Under the pieces are notes generated by a model. It worked only from the letters and a program-made list of their open reading frames with translations. It made no database searches and was not told the DNA's origin. Below are positions 4,182 through 16,945 of a stretch of 56,246 nt of DNA, one piece after another. The stretch spans positions 1 through 56,246 of the forward strand of contig WFYS01000121.1 of NCBI GenBank assembly GCA_015490005.1, read 5' to 3'. The translations under genes and the position numbers were made by a program. This DNA comes from Desulfurellaceae bacterium (GTDB lineage Bacteria > Campylobacterota_A > Desulfurellia > Desulfurellales > Hippeaceae). The first letter of the stretch is position 1. Every line of letters starts with the position of its first letter.

Positions 4182-4316
4182 ATGAAAAGGACATTTCAAC
4201 CGCACAATAAGCCAAGAAAAAGAACCCATGGTTTTAGAGCAAAAATGAGGACTGTGGGTGGCAGAAAGGTTCTATCGAGAAGGAGAGCTAAGGGTAGAAA
4301 GAGATTAACGGTTTAA
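4182..4316 (+). CDS. rpmH: 50S ribosomal protein L34
   Basis: A 44-residue, Arg/Lys-rich protein that begins [20 protein letters not shown] and ends with KGRKRLTV, matching bacterial L34 over its full length. It has an excellent Shine-Dalgarno, GGAGG, 9 bases before the ATG. L34 is a late-assembling large-subunit protein. It is first in the classic rpmH-rnpA-yidD-yidC cluster. The rnpA frame appears to begin inside its last four codons plus stop (see rnpA). Confidence 0.98.
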
Positions 4317-4651
4317 ATTTTAAGGTAAAGTACAAATCTCTTAAAACTACCGAATTTAGGGAAATTTACGCTAAGGGGGATAAATTTGTAACTACTTACT
4401 TTGTCCTATTTGTTTTACATGGCAAAGAGGAATTTAAGGCAGGTGTAGTTGCAAGTAAAAAGATAGGCAAAGCTGTAAAGAGAAATCGTGCGAAGAGGAG
4501 GCTGAGAGAAATAATAAGATTATCTCAACACGAAATACCGAATAATATTTGGCTTGTTATGATTGCAAGATACAGTATTTTGAATGTTGATTTTAAAAAA
4601 GCTAGAAAGATTTTTACTAAGCTATTAAATGAAAATATTAAGTCTAATTAG
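4304..4651 (+). CDS. rnpA: Ribonuclease P protein component, with predicted ATT start codon
   Basis: The frame from 4298 to the TAG at 4649-4651 encodes a full Rnp[21 protein letters not shown] aligns with the family N-terminus, and the hallmark basic helix appears as [19 protein letters not shown]. RnpA is the protein subunit of RNase P, which matures tRNA 5' ends. There is no ATG, GTG, TTG or CTG in frame before the conserved region: a TAG lies at 4295-4297 and the first ATG is far inside, near 4558. The best candidate is ATT at 4304, 9 bases after TAAGGG, giving 115 residues, the usual length, and a 13-base overlap with rpmH. The identity is certain; the start is an inference. A sequencing error is an alternative. 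Confidence 0.9.
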
Positions 4652-14566: not shown

Positions 14567-14854
14567 CTACCTCTCAATAACCTTTGGCACTTTAAACGAT
14601 TCACCGTCTGTTTCGGGCGCATTTTTTAATATCAAATCCCTATTCATTGAAGGTTTAACCTCGTCTTCTCTAAAAACATTTTGAAGCTCCGTTATATGAA
14701 AAGCTGCTTCACAATCAGAAAGGTCTAACTCGTTAATCTGCTTCATGTAATTCAAAATTTCATTAAACTGAGACGCAAATTTATCTATTTGATTCTCTTC
14801 CAATTCAAGCATGGCCAACTTAGCAATTCTTTTAACCTCTTCTTTATCAACCAT
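14567..14854 (-). CDS. gatC: Aspartyl/glutamyl-tRNA amidotransferase subunit C
   Basis: From the ATG at 14854 (AAGGAG 6 bases upstream) the product is 95 residues, the usual length: MVDKEEVKRIAKLAMLELEE, then the FNEILNYMKQINELD helix, and the C-terminal FKVPKVIER. An upstream in-frame TTG would add seven residues that include the Shine-Dalgarno itself, so it is rejected. GatC stabilises the GatA-GatB complex. It lies directly upstream of gatA. Confidence 0.95.
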   Translation of the reverse strand: MVDKEEVKRIAKLAMLELEENQIDKFASQFNEILNYMKQINELDLSDCEAAFHITELQNVFREDEVKPSMNRDLILKNAPETDGESFKVPKVIER

Positions 14855-14864
14855 ATCTATCTCC

Positions 14865-15590
14865 TTAATAGCCAACTTTTCTCAAAAACAATCCCTCAGA
14901 AGGTGCCTTAAACGATTTAACATTTCTAACATTGAAAATTATATTACCGCTTTCATCTTTTTGCAAGCGCATAAGGGAATAAGCAATTGCCAATCCCACC
15001 ATATTGCGTACCATACCCCTTAAAAAACCATTAGCCCTTACATGAAAAATCACAAAATCCCTAAAACGTTTGACTCTAAAAAAATATACCTCTCGAACGC
15101 ATTTTTTATCCTTAGATTCATTGGAGAATAAAAGAAAATCCCTTTTACCGACAAACCCACCTACAAATTCTCTAAGCTTTTCTATATCGAGCTTCAAAGG
15201 CACATGCCATACGTAGTTATTCAAAAACGGTGGCAAAACACTGCTATTAAAGACAAAATACACATACTCTCTGAACTTCGCAGAATATCTGCTATTAAAA
15301 TTATCACCAGCTTCAAACACTTTCAAAATTCTTACATCCTTAGGTAAGATTGAATTTAAACCTTTAAGAAGTGCATCTAGATGTATTGGAAAAGGGGGTG
15401 AGAAGTCGATAACTTGACCAAAGGCATGTACTCCTGAATCTGTTCTACCAGCATAATTTATTTTTATAGACGTTTTAAATATCTTGGACAGTGCTTTTTC
15501 TAAAACTTTTTGGATGGTTAAACAGTTAGGTTGAATCTGAAAACCACAGTAGTTTGTTCCATCATACGATACAAGTGCAGCATACCTTAT
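14865..15590 (-). CDS. truA: tRNA pseudouridine38-40 synthase TruA, with predicted ATA start codon
   Basis: The frame encodes a complete 241-residue TruA: the N-terminal RYAALVSYDGTNYCGFQIQP, the catalytic aspartate in YAGRTDSGVHAFGQV (about residue 52), and the C-terminal VRANGFLRGMVRNMVGLAIA. It has no ATG, GTG or TTG at its beginning; the first is a TTG at 15326, well past the catalytic Asp. A TAG lies four codons before the conserved N-terminus, and the only plausible start between them is ATA at 15590. That codon overlaps the tldD TAA and sits exactly 9 bases after GGAGG (15604-15600). Gene identity is certain; the AUA start is inferred. TruA isomerises uridines 38-40 in tRNA anticodon arms. 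Confidence 0.9.
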   Translation of the reverse strand: MRYAALVSYDGTNYCGFQIQPNCLTIQKVLEKALSKIFKTSIKINYAGRTDSGVHAFGQVIDFSPPFPIHLDALLKGLNSILPKDVRILKVFEAGDNFNSRYSAKFREYVYFVFNSSVLPPFLNNYVWHVPLKLDIEKLREFVGGFVGKRDFLLFSNESKDKKCVREVYFFRVKRFRDFVIFHVRANGFLRGMVRNMVGLAIAYSLMRLQKDESGNIIFNVRNVKSFKAPSEGLFLRKVGY

Positions 15591-16945
15591 AGCGCGCTAC
15601 CTCCAACCATAATAGAAGGTATCCTTAAAGTTGGTTCACCATCTGTCACAGGCACACCCTGGCCTCCTTTACCGCACGTTCCAACTTCCACGCCAAAATC
15701 ACTGCCTACCATATCAATCTCCTCTAACACCTTAGGTCCATTACCTATAAGCGTTGCTCCTCTCACCATATGTCCAATCTTGCCGCTCTTTATGGTGTAG
15801 CCTTCAGCCACTTCAAAAACAAAATCACCTGTTGCAGGGTTAACCTGGCCGCCACCCATTCTAACAACAAACAAACCGTCATCCACAGAAGCAATTATCT
15901 CTTCAGGATTATCATTACCTGGCAAAATGTACGTATTGGACATCCTCACAATGGGCGGAAACCTAAAAGACTCCCTTCGGGCGTTGCCAGTAGGCTCTTT
16001 GCCTGCAAACTTAGCATACATCTTATCAAACATATACCCCTTTAAAATTCCATTTTCAATCAACAAAGTATTCTGAGATTTTGTCCCCTCATCATCAAAA
16101 TAAAAAGAGCCTCTCATCTTAGGCCTAGTGGAATCATCTACAACAGTTATTTTCTCATTTGCAACCTTTTGACCCAATTTATCTTTATAAACACTCATAG
16201 ATTCATAAACAAGGTCGGCCTCAAGCCCATGCCCAACAGCTTCGTGTATCATTGTACCGCCTGCATTACTTGACAAAACTACTGTCATACTTCGGGCTTT
16301 TAAAGGTGGGGCATGCAAAAGCTCAATTAATTTTTCGCTGGTTTCTACAGCCATTTTCTTGAAATCCATATTTTCAAAGCATTCAAAACCACCAAGATAA
16401 CTAAACGGCCGTCTAAAGGTTTGATAATTGTCTTTATCTGCAGCTGTAATTTCAAAGTACAAAACAGTGTATATCCTTTTTTCCTTTAGATGCTCGCCTG
16501 TTTCATTAATTATCTCTACATTTTTCAATCTATCTGAAAAGGTCATGCTGACCTGTTTTATTTCTTTATTTTTATAGGCCTCGCTGCAAAAATCATCGTA
16601 AATAGCTTTGATTTTGTCAACATGCGGCTTGTATTCGTCGCACATACCTACACTCTTTTCTTTGCTTTCAGACAAAACAAATGCACCACTACTATTTAAA
16701 TTCGAGATACTCGTCAAAAACTTACTCATTTCATAAACGTTTTTCTCGCTTATATCAAACGATGATGAATACAAAACGCTAAAACCCTTCACAGTCCTTA
16801 CGCCTACGCCCCTATCATGGCTAATCTTAATATTCTCAATTTCGCCACTTTTTGCTTCAACAAGTCTCACAAACGAATTTTCTAAGTATATGTCAAAAAA
16901 ATCGCAATCAGCATTTTTTAGAACGGCAAAGGCGTCTTCATACAT
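15587..16945 (-). CDS. tldD: Metalloprotease TldD
   Basis: A 452-residue TldD/PmbA family protein with the zinc motif HEAVGHGLEADL (HExxxH, about residue 235) and the GTCGKGGQGVPVTDGEPTL C-terminal signature. TldD forms a heterodimer with TldE and degrades unfolded or modified peptides. Its partner tldE is 28 kb away at 44.8 kb rather than adjacent. ACCTCC-complement Shine-Dalgarno lies just upstream of the ATG. The pps terminator T-tract ends only about 8 bases before that Shine-Dalgarno, leaving no room for a promoter, so expression may depend on terminator read-through. Its stop codon overlaps the truA start. Confidence 0.95.
   Translation of the reverse strand: MYEDAFAVLKNADCDFFDIYLENSFVRLVEAKSGEIENIKISHDRGVGVRTVKGFSVLYSSSFDISEKNVYEMSKFLTSISNLNSSGAFVLSESKEKSVGMCDEYKPHVDKIKAIYDDFCSEAYKNKEIKQVSMTFSDRLKNVEIINETGEHLKEKRIYTVLYFEITAADKDNYQTFRRPFSYLGGFECFENMDFKKMAVETSEKLIELLHAPPLKARSMTVVLSSNAGGTMIHEAVGHGLEADLVYESMSVYKDKLGQKVANEKITVVDDSTRPKMRGSFYFDDEGTKSQNTLLIENGILKGYMFDKMYAKFAGKEPTGNARRESFRFPPIVRMSNTYILPGNDNPEEIIASVDDGLFVVRMGGGQVNPATGDFVFEVAEGYTIKSGKIGHMVRGATLIGNGPKVLEEIDMVGSDFGVEVGTCGKGGQGVPVTDGEPTLRIPSIMVGGSAL

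Follow-up and report, generated by a model that had tools for sequence, protein, structure and literature searches.

A conserved near-cognate start codon of truA at the tldD-truA junction in Desulfurellales

The tRNA pseudouridine synthase gene truA of the order Desulfurellales, to which the heat-loving sulphur bacterium Hippea belongs, is a new member of the known class of bacterial genes with near-cognate start codons; its start is real and conserved and not an artefact. The initiation codon is ATA in every one of the 15 genomes of the Hippea family whose tldD-truA junction could be read, and ATT at the matching codon position in all three genomes of the sister family (Desulfurella-like). 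The best explanation, which we regard as probable, is a weak start driven by the Shine-Dalgarno (SD) sequence and coupled to tldD, kept for a low output of TruA and possibly responsive to IF3. Because infC in this lineage itself starts with ATA, truA can be placed among the known near-cognate starts discriminated by IF3 (infC, pcnB and ccpN).

The window, meaning the whole stretch of 56,246 nucleotides that was analysed, comes from a draft, Hippea-like MAG. It carries truA, encoding tRNA pseudouridine(38-40) synthase, on the minus strand at 14865-15590, with 241 codons from the ATA plus TAA. The frame is intact, matches TIGR00071 (169.2 bits against a cut-off of 142.85 in a profile search) and PF01416, and retains the catalytic motif GRTDSGVHA (pattern GRTDxGVHA). 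The upstream partner of the overlapping pair is the metalloprotease gene tldD (15587-16945, minus strand; NCBIfam TldD models), and downstream lies gatC (14567-14854, minus strand; TIGR00135), which has an ATG and a GGAG of its own.

Along the minus strand the sequence of the junction is GGTTGGAGGTAGCGCGCTATAAGGTATGCTGCA, with the tldD frame ending GGA GGT AGC GCG CTA TAA and the truA frame running TAG CGC GCT ATA AGG TAT GCT GCA. Since the tldD TAA occupies 15587-15589, it overlaps the truA start (15588-15590) as ATAA. The truA frame is closed upstream by the TAG at 15597-15599, three codons 5' of the ATA and four 5' of the Arg codon, and the ATA is the sole third-base relative of ATG between this TAG and the TruA core. 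The SD sequence GGAGG (15600-15604) falls within conserved Gly-Gly codons of tldD and is separated from the ATA by the 9-nt spacer TAGCGCGCT. Its duplex with the anti-SD is predicted at -10.7 kcal/mol, which tops 71% of 189 genes; across the genus the values range from -10.7 to -11.6 kcal/mol, stronger than 71-80% of genes. An earlier note made from the letters of the window had described an ATA start overlapping the tldD TAA, a GGAGG 9 bases upstream, an intact TruA frame behind a TAG and no other near-cognate codon between them, and every one of these details is confirmed.

The junction was compared in nine family genomes of the same genus and six of other genera, five genera overall. ATA is constant among them and the neighbouring codons vary. 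The tldD stop is TAA in 14 and TAG in one, never TGA, so that the overlap is either ATAA or ATAG. In the sister family the junction is GGGGGTTAATATATTCGCTATAAA or a near variant, where the ATT stands three bases past the tldD TAA and there is no overlap. Six class-level outgroups, three of three in each of the families f3 and f4, have ATG aligned with or neighbouring the ATA/ATT position, and the alignment is ungapped in f4. These two families belong to the same class, so AUG was lost either by the common ancestor of Desulfurellales or separately in its two families. The two genes adjoin in all 21 loci compared (L003-L023), and the gene order tldD-truA-gatC (14567-16945 in the window, minus strand) is kept through Desulfurellales and f3. 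Such an alignment had been proposed in the earlier note, which named ATG in relatives as evidence against its reading; the outcome was the opposite, with no ATG in the family or the sister family. The most divergent family member (G012, locus L017) also keeps ATA; its SD, AGGTGG, looks weak by eye and its TldD tail ends in Lys. No report of an AUA start for truA was found in the open-access literature.

Other starts for truA were considered on both sides of the ATA. In the complete Hippea genomes G004 and G007, 93 aligned codons precede the first in-frame NTG, and this NTG-free stretch evolves as protein, with 14, 9 and 39 substitutions at the three codon positions. A downstream start is rejected since at least 93 codons separate it from the first NTG. 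The sister family has a TTG (in G018) or a CTG four codons downstream of the ATT. An upstream start is rejected because most relatives have stops two to three codons upstream and no NTG between. In four genomes (G004, G007, G011 and G014) the stop is two codons 5' of the ATA, for example TAG TAG CCT ATA, which leaves only CCT or ATA as an upstream start. Folds of the 15 junctions gave no shared hairpin.

Stretches of 1.2 Mb from each of G004 and G007 yielded 912 coding-like reciprocal ortholog pairs, of which 851 were retained for good length and identity. Three of the 851 pairs lack any NTG and have a coding-like N-terminus, in a screen that is blind to genes with an NTG just downstream of the true start: truA, rnpA (34 codons, modest signal of 3/3/5) and a livH-like permease gene (38 codons, 1/2/15). 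A fourth NTG-less pair starts at a conserved A9 run and is better explained by a slippage or frameshift site. A large protein, AsmA-like by eye but without a Pfam family, has its coding sequence divided between two frames at a conserved nine-A run (G004 contig C1, about 1691200, L104; G007 contig C1, about 114300, L109), likely by programmed transcriptional slippage or frameshifting. Two further candidates for ATA or ATC starts were dropped, Sir2 because a GTG is present and CobS because its prefix is not coding-like. Counts of conserved codons behind strong SDs were 298/892 for ATG, 19/108 for GTG and 12/163 for TTG, against 12/620 for ATA, which is no higher than for sense codons. Judged by sequence, the initiation machinery is normal: the 16S 3' end is GGCTGGATCACCTCCTTT (found in G004, G007, G008 and G018), the anticodon arm of the initiator tRNA is GGGCTCATAACCC (also in the window's own genome) and IF3_C profile scores are usual. 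The IF3 search of G004, which contains long N stretches, gave no match.

The start of infC, which the earlier note had suggested inspecting together with the 16S 3' end and a genome-wide count of NTG-less genes, is ATA in every family genome read (among loci L066-L086; L082 on contig C26 of the window's own genome). Its SD is extended, of the AGGAGGTGAT type, and stronger than that of 99.5% of genes. The infC start seems to be ATA in families f2 and f4 too. Among the 14 family genomes read for the LivH/UrtB-type permease gene, 13 have an ATA start and one, G013, has ATT (L252, L253 and L254-L265; L258 near 9691 on contig C66 of the window's own genome); the SD is mostly of the GGAGG type, and paralogues in the same lineage start with ATG. 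The RNase P protein gene rnpA (4304-4651, plus strand; TIGR00188) probably starts at an ATT (4304-4306) within the 3' end of rpmH. It has no in-frame NTG, in agreement with the non-AUG start proposed for it earlier, and the ATT is found in 16 of 16 genomes of both families (L044-L059). The evidence for rnpA is weaker because the ATT bases also encode Arg-Leu of RpmH, where the Arg codons are mostly AGA. At the matching place within rpmH, f4 has ATC (L061, L064 and L065). The link to tRNA maturation drawn in the earlier note stands in that truA and probably rnpA have near-cognate starts, but it is not exclusive, since infC and the livH-like gene also begin with ATA.

That a true ATG was misread through sequencing or assembly error might be suspected in a draft MAG, but it is refuted by the relatives, which share the codon. 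The identical codon occurs in 15 genomes, one of which matches the finished genome of H. maritima MH2, sequenced at 1,213x Illumina coverage with an error below 1 in 100,000 (PMC3156395), and the chance of such an error is practically nil. The overlap of the tldD and truA frames, and the lack of NTG in the truA frame from the upstream stop to the TruA core, would also suit a TldD-TruA fusion by -1 frameshifting as the sole truA product, with the ATA not used as a start. However, there is no slippery heptamer at GCGCTATAA, the final tldD codon is variable (CTA, TTA or AAA), in four genomes a stop only two codons upstream leaves a shift hardly any room, and the sister family would require another mechanism, readthrough of TAA; a fusion is thus very improbable. 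Relaxed start-codon selection with broad use of AUA and AUU, one of the explanations offered in the earlier note, would fit four near-cognate starts in one lineage (infC, truA, the livH-like gene and probably rnpA), but was not borne out. NTG is absent in only three of 851 pairs besides the probable slippage ORF, ATA behind strong SDs does not rise above sense codons, and neither the IF3_C scores nor the 16S 3' end nor the anticodon arm of the initiator tRNA is unusual. This reading is only slightly less improbable than a fusion.

The ATA might also be used and yet be a neutral relic of drift from TGA to TAA in tldD, tolerated because coupled initiation is adequate. The outgroup f3 has TCATGA, one substitution from the ATAA overlap, and truA is often dispensable. 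Further, ATA comes free from NTA followed by TAA in tldD, and the TldD C-terminus could explain part of the conservation. The start has nevertheless been kept in 15 and 3 genomes although the change back is a single transition: a TGA stop in tldD, the only substitution able to bring ATG back, is absent from all family members, and 10% of TAA genes carry TGA in the other species when G004 and G007 are compared. In 14 genomes tldD ends in a Leu codon, and in all 14 this codon is A-ending, compared with only 60% of 6,159 A-ending Leu codons remaining so between G004 and G007, although these codon and stop counts are not phylogenetically independent. The sister family, moreover, has ATT without an overlap, and taken together a relic is unlikely. 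Loss of TGA as a stop is ruled out as a cause because TGA accounts for 36% of stops and ATGA overlaps occur often; the tally of four-base overlaps, which does not show where genes start, was not drawn on for ATA.

A weak coupled start remains the preferred reading. Points against it are the share that the TldD C-terminus could have in the conservation of ATA, the position of GGAGG in conserved Gly-Gly codons, the weak-looking SD of G012 and the TTG or CTG downstream of the ATT in the sister family. The SD at 9 nt would set fMet-tRNA on the AUA, or on the AUU in the sister family, and ribosomes terminating tldD at the overlapping stop would provide 30S subunits on site. With a mismatch at the third base, which IF3 tends to reject, initiation of truA is expected to be weak. 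A low output of TruA may be favoured and the codon therefore retained, perhaps in response to the level of IF3 as in infC. Re-initiation after tldD, suggested in the earlier note as what permits AUA, fits the four-base overlap and the 3-nt gap of the sister family, but it is not the general reason, since infC in the genus has its ATA 15 or more bases past the upstream in-frame stop.

To our knowledge, only a few bacterial genes have been described with a natural AUA start. Prodigal, which is the gene finder reported for H. maritima, considers only ATG, GTG and TTG by default, and annotation therefore truncates or misplaces genes with AUA starts. In truA, two families have kept AUA or AUU although AUG is one easy mutation away, which offers a clean natural test of selection for weak starts. 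With truA joining infC, rnpA and the livH-like gene, the old question of IF3 control beyond infC also becomes directly testable. Tentatively, and with considerable doubt, the four genes may form an IF3-responsive group in Desulfurellales in which falling IF3 opens the AUA and AUU starts together. If so, the fidelity of initiation would govern how much is made of the enzymes of tRNA maturation and of one transporter.

The closest known parallel is infC, with AUU in Escherichia coli and AUA in Staphylococcus aureus, where a conserved start with a third-base mismatch is likewise driven by the SD. It differs in being self-regulating and in its extended SD, whereas the SD of truA is moderately strong and its start overlaps a stop codon. 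AUA starts are described for infC, ccpN and citZ of S. aureus, and the AUA and AUU starts tested gave about 10% of the output of AUG (PMC13009471). The ccpN (AUA) and cvfC1 (AUU) genes of S. aureus and its relatives resemble truA in having conserved starts with strong SDs, but they are unrelated genes of Firmicutes for which the output of about 10% of AUG comes from experiment. In E. coli, the AUU of pcnB limits expression and keeps poly(A) polymerase low (PMC9764084). Like truA, for which low output is inferred, pcnB encodes a housekeeping enzyme acting on RNA that is held low by a near-cognate start, but it has AUU and a poor ribosome-binding site, and no overlap is reported for it there. 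Gene pairs coupled through ATGA share with tldD-truA the four-base stop-start overlap and the SD within the upstream gene; tldD-truA differs from them in that the overlap is ATAA or ATAG and the start AUA.
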